A DNA stretch of 64,000 nucleotides. Origin: Ruegeria marisrubri. GTDB taxonomy: Bacteria > Pseudomonadota > Alphaproteobacteria > Rhodobacterales > Rhodobacteraceae. The DNA lies in the NCBI RefSeq assembly GCF_001507595.1, contig NZ_LQBQ01000012.1:434001-498000 (forward strand), read 5' to 3'. Shown here in pieces: positions 5,090-8,970 of this stretch; the first letter of the stretch is position 1, and each line of letters starts with the position of its first letter. The position numbers were made by a program, and so were the translations under genes. Below the pieces are notes generated by a model. The model saw only the letters and a list, made by a program, of their open reading frames with translations. It had not been told where the DNA came from and ran no database searches.

Positions 5090-5455
5090 TCAGCTCTGCG
5101 AGGGCAGGCTCTCGTCGAACTTGATCGACTCGCCGCAGCCGCAGGCATCGACCACGTTCGGGTTCTTGAACTTGAAACCCGATTCCAGCAGCGACACCTC
5201 ATAGTCGATCTCGGTGCCGAACAGGAACATCTGCGCCATCGGCGCGATCATCACGCGGGCGCCGTCCTGCTCGACCACCTCATCATTCGGGTCGGGCTGA
5301 TCGACATATTCCATCGTGTATTCCATGCCCGCGCAGCCACCCTTCTTGACGCCGATGCGCAGACCGGCGTGACCGCCCTTTTCCATCAGGCGGCTGATCT
5401 GGGCTGCGGCCCTCGGGGTCATGGTCACGGCCTGTTTGCCGGGAATGCCGAACAT
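5090..5455 (-). CDS. A-type Fe-S cluster carrier (SufA/ErpA/IscA family)
   Basis: 121 residues of the HesB/IscA family, which accept and hand over [2Fe-2S] or [4Fe-4S] clusters to apo-proteins. The three conserved cysteines are visible in KKGGCAGMEY and VDACGCGESIKF. The N-terminus MFGIPGKQAVTMTPRAAAQI is a little longer than the minimal 107-residue form. A GGAGAACCCC site precedes the ATG. It follows sufT by about 175 bp on the same strand, which supports a role in Fe-S assembly; sufBCDS themselves are not in the window. Which A-type paralogue it is cannot be decided from sequence reading alone. Confidence 0.9.
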   Translation of the reverse strand: MFGIPGKQAVTMTPRAAAQISRLMEKGGHAGLRIGVKKGGCAGMEYTMEYVDQPDPNDEVVEQDGARVMIAPMAQMFLFGTEIDYEVSLLESGFKFKNPNVVDACGCGESIKFDESLPSQS

Positions 5456-5630: not shown

Positions 5631-5993
5631 CTACATGAAACCCAGCTCCAGCCGCGCCTCGTCCGACATCATCTCCATGCCCCAGGGCGGCTCCCAGGTC
5701 AGTTCGACATCGACGCTCTTGACGCCCGGAACAGGCTCGATCGCGTCCATGACCCATCCGGGCATGTCCCCGGCCACCGGGCAGCCCGGCGCGGTCAGGG
5801 TCATGATCACCTTGACGTCATTCTCGGCGTTGATGTCGATGGTATAGATCAGGCCCAGTTCGAAGATGTTGACCGGGATTTCAGGGTCATAGACCGTCCG
5901 GCAGGCTTCGACCACCGCATCGTAAAGCGGGTGGTCAACGGTGGACGGCGCAATCAGCGGCGCCCCTTCAAGCGGTTCGGTCGCGTGGGTCAT
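5631..5993 (-). CDS. sufT: SufT/MIP18-family Fe-S assembly protein (DUF59)
   Basis: 120 residues, a complete MIP18/YitW-like domain: VYDPEIPVNIFELGLIY, the TLTAPGCPVAGDMP stretch with the conserved cysteine, and VELTWEPPWGMEMMSDEARLELG at the end. SufT-type proteins help maturation of Fe-S proteins, especially [4Fe-4S] enzymes, and usually accompany suf genes. Here it is followed by an A-type carrier and preceded by a cyclase carrying two predicted Fe-S centres. A CGAGGACCTG ribosome binding region precedes the ATG and a TATAAT-containing promoter lies just upstream. Confidence 0.9.
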   Translation of the reverse strand: MTHATEPLEGAPLIAPSTVDHPLYDAVVEACRTVYDPEIPVNIFELGLIYTIDINAENDVKVIMTLTAPGCPVAGDMPGWVMDAIEPVPGVKSVDVELTWEPPWGMEMMSDEARLELGFM

Positions 5994-6014: not shown

Positions 6015-6055
6015 TCAGTTACCTGAGCGATTATATAGGGAAATCGTGTTCCGGG
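6015..6055 (-). promoter_or_regulatory. Promoter of sufT with inverted repeat at the start site
   Basis: Read on the minus strand, a perfect TATAAT lies at 6035-6030 with a loose GGACCC-like -35 upstream. Immediately downstream, TCAG-GTAA-CTGA forms a short dyad (6026-6015) at the expected transcription start, a plausible repressor site. Family of the regulator (IscR, RirA or other) is not deducible from this dyad. Confidence 0.5.
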
Positions 6056-6072
6056 GTCCAGAGGGCGCGACG

Positions 6073-7455
6073 TCATTCCCCGATTGCAACCCAGACATGG
6101 CCACCATCAACCCGCGTCGGGAACACCTGCAACGGGTTCTGGTTCTTCGAGATGTCGCCCAAGTGCTCCATGCCCTCGGACGTGCCGTCCTCGTTCAACA
6201 ACTCGCACCACGAGACCACCTCTCCGGTATCCAGGTCGAACCGGCTGCGGTGCCAGCGGCAGACCACCTCGTTGGCGTTGGCCTCGCTCTCGTCGGGGCG
6301 CAGTTTCTCGGGGCAGTCCAGGTTCTGCTGCCGGTTGAACAGGGGCAGATGGACATGCGGGCAGGCGTTGTTGAAGGCGTGGAACGTGTCGCCATGCCGG
6401 ACAAGAACCAGATCGAGGCTGGGCAGGTCGAACACCCTGACCTCGCCATCGTCCAGCGCATCGACCGCGATCAGGCGCGACCAATCGCGCCCGGCAAACC
6501 GCATGGTCTCGCGGTCCGCGGCGGCGTTCAGCGCGGCCGAGGCCTGCGGCGTCAGCCCCGAAATCTCGTAGAGCGTCGTGCGCTGCGAGGTGCCGGGCAG
6601 GCGGATGCGCACGAAATCCGACATCTCCACATCATCCCGCACCTGTTCGTACAGCGACTCGGAGACCAGAAAGCGCGTCCCGGCCTCCTTGTTGGCGGCT
6701 TCGACGCGGCTGGCGACGTTCACCACGTCGCCGATGGCGGTCAGCCTCTCGCTGCCGATCGAGCCGACCGAGCCGATCACCGCCTCGCCCCAGTGCAGCC
6801 CGATTCGCACCTCGAAATCGATGTCGTACATGCTCTTGAAAAACGGTTTCATCCGGTCGATCGCCGCCTGGCATTGCAAGGCGGCGTTCACCGCCCGCAG
6901 GGGTGCGGCCTCGGGGTTGTCGATGCCGAAGATCGCCATCATCCCGTCCCCGACGAACTTGTCCACGAAACCGTCATTGGCCTCGATGATCTCGCCCATC
7001 TGCGCGAAATAGCGGTTCAGCAGGTGCAGCACGTCATAGGGCAGCAGGTTTTCCGAGATGCCGGTAAAGCCCTTGATGTCGGAAAAGAAGATCGCAACCT
7101 GCTTCAGTTCGCCCGCCTTGCGGTTGCGTCCGCCGTCCAGCTGGCTGGTCAGCAGGATGTCGGTTTCGTCCAGAACCAGCCGGCGGAATTTCAGATAGCC
7201 GGTCGGCCGCAACTGGCACGACAGCCGCACATGCGGGTCAAGGCCCAGTTGTTCGGCCAGATCCGCCTCTTTGCCGGTGCGCTCGGGGCAGTTTTCCAAC
7301 CCGTCCAGTATCCAGACCCGGCAGGTGGAACATTTCGCCTTGCCGCCGCAGACATGGGTCAGCGGCAATCCGGCGCGCCGGGCGGCCTCCAGCAGGGTTT
7401 CCCCGTCCTCGCAGGAAAAGGAGAAGTCGTCCGGGAATGAGTGCAGCGTTGGCAT
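6073..7455 (-). CDS. Three-domain protein: [2Fe-2S] ferredoxin - class III adenylate cyclase - Rieske [2Fe-2S]
   Basis: 460 residues. Residues ~1-95 form a plant-type ferredoxin domain with the cysteine pattern C36-x5-C42-x2-C45...C80. Residues ~115-300 are a class III nucleotide cyclase: metal-binding D126 (FFSDIKGFTG) and D170 (KFVGDGMMAIFG), adenine-selecting K166 and D243, and transition-state N246 and R250 (GDVVNVASR), so an intact adenylate cyclase is predicted. Residues ~318-458 are a Rieske domain with C365-P-H367 and C399-x2-H402 (CRWHRSRFD), with an unusually long 31-residue spacer. No membrane segment is seen, so it is probably cytoplasmic. The start at 7455 follows a GGAGG site and is preferred over an ATG 42 bp upstream. 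Located upstream of sufT. Redox or Fe-S gating of cAMP synthesis is inferred. Confidence 0.9.
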   Translation of the reverse strand: MPTLHSFPDDFSFSCEDGETLLEAARRAGLPLTHVCGGKAKCSTCRVWILDGLENCPERTGKEADLAEQLGLDPHVRLSCQLRPTGYLKFRRLVLDETDILLTSQLDGGRNRKAGELKQVAIFFSDIKGFTGISENLLPYDVLHLLNRYFAQMGEIIEANDGFVDKFVGDGMMAIFGIDNPEAAPLRAVNAALQCQAAIDRMKPFFKSMYDIDFEVRIGLHWGEAVIGSVGSIGSERLTAIGDVVNVASRVEAANKEAGTRFLVSESLYEQVRDDVEMSDFVRIRLPGTSQRTTLYEISGLTPQASAALNAAADRETMRFAGRDWSRLIAVDALDDGEVRVFDLPSLDLVLVRHGDTFHAFNNACPHVHLPLFNRQQNLDCPEKLRPDESEANANEVVCRWHRSRFDLDTGEVVSWCELLNEDGTSEGMEHLGDISKNQNPLQVFPTRVDGGHVWVAIGE

Positions 7456-7545
7456 GGCGCGCCTCCAGAGGCCGAAGGTGAGCCTGCACTGTAGCACGCG
7501 CGGCGCCCAAACGGTGCAGCTATCTGGCGCCGCCTGTCGCTTCGA

Positions 7546-7827
7546 TCACTCGTTGATGTCGTGATCGAACGTCTTGACCTGTCCGTGGGGCAGGGCAAAG
7601 ACCCGCCGCAGCACCAGCCACGCGATCAGGGACAGCGCGGCAAAGATCAGCAACAGCACCGCCAGATGCACCGAAAAGTCCGGAAGCAGCAGCAACAGCC
7701 CGGTGATCGCCGCGCCCACGGCAAAGCCCAGAAAGATGAAACCGGGCAAGAGCACCTCGAGAATGGCCAGAACCAGAGCCCCGGCCATCCAGACCCACCA
7801 GATCGTCCAGAAGGGATCGGCCATCAC
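7546..7827 (-). CDS. NfeD-like membrane protein
   Basis: 93 residues: two to three hydrophobic helices (WTIWWVWMAGALVLAILEVLLPG, FIFLGFAVGAAITGLLLLLP, HLAVLLLIFAALSLIAWLVL) followed by a short soluble tail. The EVLLPGFIFLGFAVGAA stretch is the NfeD hallmark. NfeD proteins partner SPFH/stomatin proteins, and here its start overlaps the 3' end of the SPFH gene by 4 bp. The C-terminal OB-fold domain is very short, as in the single-domain NfeD1b class. Confidence 0.88.
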   Translation of the reverse strand: MMADPFWTIWWVWMAGALVLAILEVLLPGFIFLGFAVGAAITGLLLLLPDFSVHLAVLLLIFAALSLIAWLVLRRVFALPHGQVKTFDHDINE

Positions 7828-8714
7828 TTGCCTCCTTTCAGCATCTTGAAGGCGTCTCCGAAGGCCTCGATGGCATTCGCCGGCAGGACGATGGTCTGCT
7901 TGCCGTCACCGTTGCCCAGCGCGTTCAGCGCCTCGACCTGCTTCAGCGCCACCTGGTACTGCGCCGCCTCGATGCCGTTCTCGCGGATCGCCTTGGCGAC
8001 GACCTCGGTGGCATAGGCCTCGGCGTCGGCCTGGATGCGGCGGGCCTTGGCGGATTGCTCGGCGGCATACAGTTCGGCATCGGCCTGCAACTCGACGGCC
8101 CGCTTGCTGCCCTCGGCCTCGGTCACCTGCGCGCGGCGGGCACGCTCGGCATTCAGCTGCTGCAGCATCGCCTCGCGGGTCGCCGCATCCAGGTTCACGT
8201 CCAGGATTTCGGCGCGGGTGACCTCGATCCCCCAGTTGTCCACCGCGTCCTCGACGCTTTCCTTGATGCGCATGATCAACTGGGCGCGGTTCGACTGCAC
8301 CTCGTCCAGGTCCATCTTGCCGATCTCGGCGCGCACGATGCCGGCGACCGTGGTCGCGATGGCCGCGTCCACGTCACGGATCCGGTAGACCGTCTTTTCC
8401 GGCTCGAGGATGCGGTAGAAAACCGAGGTTTCGACCTGCACCAGCACGTTGTCCTTGGTGATCGCGTCCTGCGTGGCATTGGGCAGCTGGCGCTCGAGCA
8501 CCGAGATCTTGTGACGCGCAACGTCCAGAAACGGAACGATGAAGTTGATGCCGGGTCCCAGCACGGAATGCAGGCGTCCGAACCGTTCCACCACGTATTT
8601 TTCCGACTGCGGAACGATCTTCACGCCCTTGAAGATCACGATGACGATGAAAATCGCGCCGAGTAGATAAATGACGTTTTGTGTGAGCAATCCGATTACC
8701 TGATCTTCGGTCAT
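7824..8714 (-). CDS. SPFH/Band 7 (stomatin-like) membrane-microdomain protein, QmcA type
   Basis: 296 residues: an N-terminal membrane anchor (VIGLLTQNVIYLLGAIFIVIVIFKG), a Band 7 domain starting VPQSEKYVVERFGR, and an alanine/glutamate-rich coiled coil (about residues 185-250) ending in a conserved ANAIEAFGDAFKML tail. Such proteins oligomerise at the inner membrane and organise microdomains or regulate membrane proteases. The ATG at 8714 is preceded by AGGGACGG; a TTG 15 bp upstream is a less likely start. Operon with the NfeD-like gene. Confidence 0.9.
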   Translation of the reverse strand: MTEDQVIGLLTQNVIYLLGAIFIVIVIFKGVKIVPQSEKYVVERFGRLHSVLGPGINFIVPFLDVARHKISVLERQLPNATQDAITKDNVLVQVETSVFYRILEPEKTVYRIRDVDAAIATTVAGIVRAEIGKMDLDEVQSNRAQLIMRIKESVEDAVDNWGIEVTRAEILDVNLDAATREAMLQQLNAERARRAQVTEAEGSKRAVELQADAELYAAEQSAKARRIQADAEAYATEVVAKAIRENGIEAAQYQVALKQVEALNALGNGDGKQTIVLPANAIEAFGDAFKMLKGGK

Positions 8715-8970
8715 ATCCGTCCCTGTCAATTGTGTGCTGTTGTATACATTTCGGGGTTGAGCCCCTGTCTTTCAATACCGGTAAGGCGTGAACGGGTGGC
8801 GAGGCAAGTATGCAGAGCAATGAGAAACCACACAAGAACGTGCTTGTGCCCTTGTTGCCATGATACCGGCCGGTTGCGCCGGAACGAGGGCGGCGCAAAC
8901 CGCCTGACGGGTTGCATTGCGCGCGCCGATCGGGCAAAGCCTGCCCGGTTCAGCGATCCGAGGCGATGAC

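Follow-up and report, generated by a model that had tools for sequence, protein, structure and literature searches.

What use might a bacterium have for a nucleotide cyclase that carries a ferredoxin at one end and a Rieske protein at the other, and why should such a gene lie beside genes for Fe-S cluster assembly? The question is raised by one gene in a 64,000-nucleotide stretch of a 720-kb contig of Ruegeria marisrubri (the stretch as a whole is called the window below). Bacterial routes that lead from the internal redox state into cyclic-nucleotide signalling are, in our own judgement, little known, and a soluble version with two types of cluster would be easier to purify and titrate, making redox gating a directly testable matter. 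The best available reading of this protein, we argue, is that of a redox-gated cyclase, with the regulation something that we infer from the company its domains keep.

What, then, does the gene encode? The frame starts with an ATG at 7455 and stops at 6073-6075; a GTG at 7497 would lengthen it, and the alignments with homologues begin at the ATG. The preliminary description of this DNA had proposed a fusion of ferredoxin, cyclase and Rieske domains, and Pfam bears this out with three domains, every match above its curated cut-off (Fer2, E 4.5e-12; Guanylate_cyc, E 3.3e-22, 79.4 bits vs a cut-off of 21.9; Rieske, residues 325-415, E 1.3e-9). Every cluster and cyclase residue that had been named also lies at its given position. 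The Fer2 domain starts near residue 8-10, a crude hydropathy count gives no N-terminal hydrophobic segments (locus L006), and we see no six-helix, cytochrome-b-like anchor. At the level of sequence, these results confirm a soluble class IIIb cyclase flanked by two different Fe-S domains (Table 1).

Table 1. The cyclase gene, its parts and its neighbours (positions are those of the window)
Feature	Position	Strand	Evidence or remark
Three-domain soluble class IIIb cyclase gene (Fer2 - cyclase - Rieske), 460 aa	6073..7455	minus	
Fer2 [2Fe-2S] domain, residues 10-85; predicted ligands C36, C42, C45, C80	7201..7428	minus	PF00111
Family-specific linker between Fer2 and cyclase, residues 90-106 (RRLVLDETDL..SQL type)	7138..7188	minus	
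Class III (IIIb) cyclase domain, residues 116-294	6574..7110	minus	PF00211
Rieske [2Fe-2S] domain, residues 318-460; predicted ligands C365, H367, C399, H402	6076..6504	minus	PF00355
SPFH/Band 7 protein, upstream neighbour	7824..8729	minus	Pfam
93-aa NfeD-like membrane protein (presumed), upstream neighbour	7546..7827	minus	order conserved in genus
Conserved sufT upstream element, TGGAC-N16-CCTATATA	6032..6060	minus	between cyclase and sufT
sufT (FeS_assembly_P / SUF_assoc), neighbour	5631..5993	minus	Pfam, NCBIfam
A-type Fe-S carrier (SufA/IscA family), neighbour	5090..5455	minus	Pfam, NCBIfam

The N-terminal part had been called a plant-type [2Fe-2S] domain. A [2Fe-2S] domain it is, but the spacing of its cysteines, C36-x5-C42-x2-C45-x34-C80, is what we take to be that of the adrenodoxin/ISC group and not the plant type, and the top NCBIfam profile is that of the ISC ferredoxin (TIGR02007, E 7.2e-13, 48.7 bits, below its cut-off of 132.1). 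The C-terminal part has the Rieske ligand motifs C365-P-H367 and C399-R-W-H402 and, modelled alone, folds with a pLDDT of 90.0 and a pTM of 0.83; the best PDB matches of residues 318-460 are the Rieske ferredoxins of 3-nitrotoluene, carbazole and naphthalene dioxygenases (5bok, 4nbc and 2qpz). Unlike those ferredoxins, the Rieske domain here is fused to a cyclase, and the stretch between its two ligand motifs is, we believe, longer than theirs. By their ligand residues both [2Fe-2S] sites are confirmed as intact, and each may be expected to bind a cluster. The full-length monomer model has a mean pLDDT of 81.7, with most of each domain locally well predicted and residues 95-113 at pLDDT < 50; since its pTM of 0.49 gives no confident arrangement of the domains, any path for electrons between the two clusters is something we can only infer.

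Is the middle of the protein a working enzyme? The window copy has D126, K166, D170, T239, N246 and R250, of which we take the two aspartates to bind metal, K166 and T239 to recognise the base, and N246 and R250 to stabilise the transition state. The residues that had been put forward as a catalytic set for ATP are therefore in place, with the exception of one assignment: the second base-recognising position is presumably T239 and not, as had been thought, D243, and a threonine at that site is a mark of class IIIb. The K166/T239 pair suggests that the product is probably cAMP. In the best structural matches of the full-length model, the cyclases CyaC of Spirulina, CyaB of P. aeruginosa and Cya2, the cyclase fold is common with the window protein; we know of no Fe-S domains in any of the three. 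By their PDB titles, Cya2 is a guanylyl cyclase and CyaC was solved also in the presence of bicarbonate, and PMC3383692 mentions a threonine thought to predict regulation by bicarbonate.

These residues can be followed through a family. We aligned 78 rows (76 distinct, L071/L083 and L069/L146 being identical pairs), 59 of them close relatives and 19 from a branch with CDGSH motifs to which we return below. D126, D170, T239, N246 and R250 are invariant in all 78, and the cluster ligands fare nearly as well: those of the ferredoxin are kept throughout save for an arginine at C36 in L089 (whose frame is open far upstream, at its 5' end) and an unread residue at C42 in L141, and those of the Rieske domain save in L127, where the Rieske end is degenerate. 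A serine stands two residues after the last Rieske histidine in 75 of the 78 rows, as it does, we believe, in bc1-type Rieske proteins. The lysine is another matter. Its position is K in 40 of the close rows, N in 13, S in 2, L in 2, R in 1 and D in 1; it is N in all 19 rows of the CDGSH branch; and it is K, without exception, in 56 of 56 membrane-type ferredoxin-cyclases. With K166 lost in so many relatives, "ATP cyclase" is too simple a name for the entire family. Branches with Asn at 166 possibly act on another substrate base, and the variable residue amounts to a natural series on cyclase specificity.

One might ask, on seeing such substitutions, whether these proteins are sensors at all. 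The Fe-S domains could be structural, or the whole could be an electron-transfer enzyme for which the cyclase domain is a scaffold, and both the replacement of K166 in many members and that of D243 in 8 of the 59 close rows lean that way. The invariance of the metal aspartates, N246 and R250 would be surprising in a dead scaffold, and the window copy keeps its K166; we judge this reading improbable.

How widespread is the architecture? We scanned one genome per species with the two Rieske motifs as queries, so that members without these motifs are missed; 175 loci were confirmed, and as the work went on with the best 80 (79 distinct), the family size that follows is a lower bound. Cyclase and Rieske positions both align within one frame in 72 of the 79. 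Another three, L079, L095 and L148, run off the end of a contig. The survey of homologues thus recovers the three-domain architecture that had been looked for, and the order Fer2 - cyclase - Rieske is, by sequence, that of a real and conserved family, not a one-off. The remaining four loci (L129, L131, L132 and L133) have Rieske frames that stand alone, in records whose titles point to cyanobacteria (Pleurocapsa, Hyellaceae and Waterburya). The proteins are 118-123 aa long in the three cases measured, and are the closest free-standing Rieske relatives among the best 80 of 175 loci.

Judged by record titles, the hosts are Leisingera and other Rhodobacteraceae, Mesorhizobium, Ensifer/Sinorhizobium, Rhizobium, Phyllobacterium, Stappia and Hongsoonwoonella, together with metagenome-assembled genomes labelled Gammaproteobacteria and Gemmatimonadetes; a Betaproteobacteria assembly contributes only a cut locus. 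Legume-symbiont genera are thus among the hosts. The distribution is patchy. A whole-protein search of 41 genomes gave a full-length match in the protein's own genome only, with none in the 24 genus relatives; a family sample gave full-length matches in 2 of 149 genomes, its own included (1 of 148 others; E 1e-58 or better); and a class sample, in which at most four candidates were scored per genome, gave matches that reach the Rieske domain in 2 of 385, its own again included (E 1e-53 or better). Among 192 plasmid records with a match, two carry full-length homologues, both of them Rhizobium megaplasmids, and these two copies are 55% identical to the window protein.

Where did such a protein come from? 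That ferredoxin-cyclase fusions are known had been pointed out in the preliminary description, and rightly so: PMC4821796 (eLife 2016) reports on 30 cyclases of class IIIb in which a ferredoxin separates the catalytic domain from an anchor of six helices. This anchor is likened there to the cytochrome b of fumarate reductase/succinate dehydrogenase, and two haems are predicted in it. Such cyclases are cluster 1 of that paper, exemplified by Q132R4 of Rhodopseudomonas palustris, and in the passages that describe them the haem is a prediction, with no test of it reported. We find such proteins close to home. In the Fer2-cyclases of genus and class relatives, the N-terminal part is 266-414 residues long and has 2-6 hydrophobic segments in 56 of 56 cases (a crude count), and the window genome itself has one (L037, a 635-codon frame with histidines in or near the hydrophobic segments).

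The likeness between the two types is considerable. Membrane type and window protein alike place a [2Fe-2S] domain of the adrenodoxin/ISC type immediately ahead of a class IIIb cyclase, and 44 positions, among them the four Fer2 cysteines and T239, are at least 90% conserved in both the membrane type and the Rieske type. The window protein differs in having no membrane anchor, in its added C-terminal Rieske domain and in a linker of its family's own: R92, L93, D96 and D99 of this linker are 100% conserved in 52 Rieske-type rows and unconserved in the 56 membrane-type rows. As the linker is not common to the membrane type, signal transmission may differ between the two. A tree of the common Fer2-plus-cyclase part has a branch with an SH-aLRT of 100 that separates all 23 membrane-type rows from the 52 Rieske-bearing rows and L038. 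Being the product of a quick search, with SH-aLRT support only and long branches between the main groups, this tree makes a single origin of the Rieske fusion likely, and no more than that. The window copy groups with Leisingera and L074/L075 in a roseobacter branch (support 97). On this evidence the nearest known kin of the family are class IIIb cyclases of the membrane that combine a ferredoxin with a cytochrome-b-like anchor.

Soluble proteins that stop after the cyclase also exist. L038, from genome G090, is a 337-codon frame with 50% identity to the window protein over residues 2-304, and WP_245126431.1 of Hymenobacter volaticus is a protein of 308 aa with 41.5% identity over residues 2-299; like the window protein they join Fer2 to cyclase without an anchor, and unlike it they have no Rieske domain. 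The flanks searched around L038 hold no Rieske remnant, and in the tree it groups weakly with a Gemmatimonadetes row (87). Searches of the CC-licensed PMC literature listed no paper on a Rieske-bearing or CDGSH-bearing cyclase, in keeping with the earlier suggestion that the system is undescribed. The simplest reading is that of a redox-gated cyclase whose haem anchor has given way to a Rieske domain.

This comparison is what brings us to redox. The common core of both types would be Fer2 plus class IIIb cyclase, with the input module exchanged, the Rieske domain (alone or with CDGSH motifs) taking the place of the cytochrome-b-like membrane anchor and its predicted haem; that one redox module appears to have been swapped for another is our main reason for reading the enzyme as redox-gated. 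In the mechanism that we propose, the N-terminal [2Fe-2S] domain would set the output of the cyclase by its redox (or cluster-occupancy) state, acting through the short, highly conserved linker. The C-terminal Rieske domain would be a second redox centre that swaps electrons with the ferredoxin centre or with a partner in the cell, such that electrons (or oxidants) reach the ferredoxin domain through or beside it. The cAMP so made would be read by proteins with cyclic-nucleotide-binding domains, nine of which are found in the window genome (along with 20 cyclase domains besides the window copy), and a redox-gated protein of this kind may switch cAMP signalling on or off with the redox state of the cell. 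Taken whole, this explanation, in which a soluble adenylate cyclase of class IIIb serves as a redox sensor in the cytoplasm, seems to us a shade better than an even bet.

The branch with CDGSH motifs takes the same design further. Its 19 rows (18 distinct) come from records titled uncultured Alphaproteobacteria, Rhodobacteraceae, MarineAlpha2 and TMED198, hosts that we take to be marine, and the motifs lie in an N-terminal extension. By pattern count there are four of them in five rows (L130, L135, L137, L147 and L149; for example, L137:4672-6468), three in one row and two in 12, so that 18 of the 19 rows have them; the row with none, L138, has its frame cut by the end of a contig. Pfam finds zf-CDGSH in four stretches of L137 and in two each of L039, L145 and L142. 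Up to six predicted cluster sites, that is, four CDGSH, a ferredoxin and a Rieske, may thus be gathered around one cyclase. A Fer2-cyclase in a 555-codon frame accompanies the CDGSH form in both of the searched genomes that carry it, G282 and G410; the count of hydrophobic segments covered the one of G410. A broader proposal, that we are dealing with soluble multi-cluster enzymes that integrate several redox inputs and that the branches with Asn for K166 make a cyclic nucleotide other than cAMP, is speculative, with some chance of being right.

So many clusters in a soluble protein raise another thought, namely that the Rieske (and CDGSH) centres do not carry electrons but react with O2, NO or reactive oxygen species, and that the cyclase is a sensor of such molecules. 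The presence of several cluster types in a soluble protein fits this idea by way of known cluster chemistry, and root-nodule genera are among the hosts, as the record titles have it. We regard an O2 or NO sensor as unlikely.

What of the neighbours? On the minus strand the order in the window is SPFH, NfeD-like, cyclase, sufT and A-type carrier, with the start of sufT 79 bases, and the carrier about 600 bases, downstream of the cyclase. (The 93-aa protein has no Pfam or NCBIfam match, and its NfeD-like nature is our assumption.) Adjacent Fe-S assembly genes had been reported, and sufT and the A-type carrier are indeed there, but the two SUFBD genes of the genome lie on another contig, flanked, by eye, by iscR, iscS, sufC and sufS. 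From the two Fe-S centres and this setting it had been suggested that the cyclase is gated by redox state, O2 or Fe-S supply. In the fuller form of the last of these ideas the clusters would act by their presence or absence, and the cyclase would report the status of assembly, or damage, of Fe-S clusters.

The difficulty is that the SPFH-NfeD-sufT-sufA block is kept in genus relatives that have no cyclase. sufT occurs in every one of the 41 genus genomes searched. Of the loci from 29 genus relatives, 28 have NfeD as well as sufT, and the gap between the two is 94-98 bases in 26 of the 28, 192 in L160 and 1,427 in L152. In L152 the interval is filled by a gene for a putative exported protein (L152:324-1247, minus); a similar gene lies upstream of sufT in L153 (L153:2030-2962, plus), where NfeD falls outside the stretch. 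These exported proteins, putative in both cases, are 307-310 aa long. L075 has another gene, the cyclase and an MFS-type transporter gene between NfeD and sufT, and L074 has the cyclase and an MFS-type gene ahead of sufT. The interval, in short, seems to collect accessory genes, and the unrelated ones in or near it in L152, L153 and L075 speak against a sensor of Fe-S supply. So does sufT itself, ahead of which the element listed in Table 1 stands at constant spacing in 31 of 31 other loci (29 genus relatives, L152-L180, plus L074 and L075). We consider it a candidate promoter-like signal, conserved though absent from the output of a sigma-70 scan. Since it is kept, sufT probably retains its own promoter, and the cyclase would be one more gene in an interval that tolerates extras.

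Linkage was then counted across the family. The queries were SufB, SufD, SufS, IscS and IscR of the window genome (named by eye except for the SUFBD pair), SufT and SufA of the window, and Mrp and NifU of L072; SufC was left aside because ABC ATPases would match widely. They were run against the window and 83 other loci, that is, the 79 of the scan (with the four stand-alone Rieske loci) plus L067, L068, L039 and L069, of which 57 have at least 3 kb on both sides. Clear Fe-S biogenesis genes lie near the cyclase in the window and in three of the 83 loci, L074, L075 and L072, all of the roseobacter branch: before sufT in L074, between NfeD and sufT in L075, and, in L072 of Leisingera aquimarina, downstream of genes for Mrp (PF10609) and a NifU-domain protein (L072:1764-4206, plus). 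(The Mrp of L072 has a GBBH-like C-terminal domain, and its Nfu/NifU protein has a DUF6522 match.) A SufS match in L105, at 24.5%, is taken to be a putative generic aminotransferase. Four of the five roseobacter members are thus near Fe-S biogenesis genes, and a local functional link in that branch is possible; these four are two placements, and three of them, among them the window, seem to go back to a single inherited position. The other 80 loci have no clear neighbour of this kind in the flanks covered. The sufT/sufA linkage expected of the homologues is, in other words, mostly missing from the available flanks, so that gating by Fe-S supply is not supported, and we would give it a small probability.

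Might some other gene travel with the cyclase? In a clustering of neighbour ORFs, no ORF of the window falls in a cluster with more than two other loci, L075 in nearly all cases, and the window is absent from the two largest clusters (22 and 19 loci); we have accordingly dropped the idea of a conserved partner gene. Pfam on 132 of 137 selected neighbour proteins from 35 contexts finds each family in at most four of the 132 (MFS and Guanylate_cyc), a count for which 25 of 151 families were listed, genes were called by a codon-periodicity heuristic, and two proteins of L074, two of L094 and one of L073 were left out.

Two smaller observations concern the cyclase domain by itself. A phage origin was considered and rejected: nine phage records match, the five listed cover residues 107-297, the cyclase only, and a single-sequence scan gave no phage match. 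Among the 80 listed of 132 confirmed viral contigs (L187-L266) the matches lie within residues 102-344. Many of these contigs, and Pelagibacter phage HTVC008M, match the cyclase domain only, with no Fer2 or Rieske in the match ranges among the matches listed. Finally, a second cyclase-domain match occurs in the flanks of the Rieske-cyclase gene at 13 of the 83 loci (L078, L093, L098, L101, L102, L104, L111, L116, L117, L128, L145, L147 and L150).
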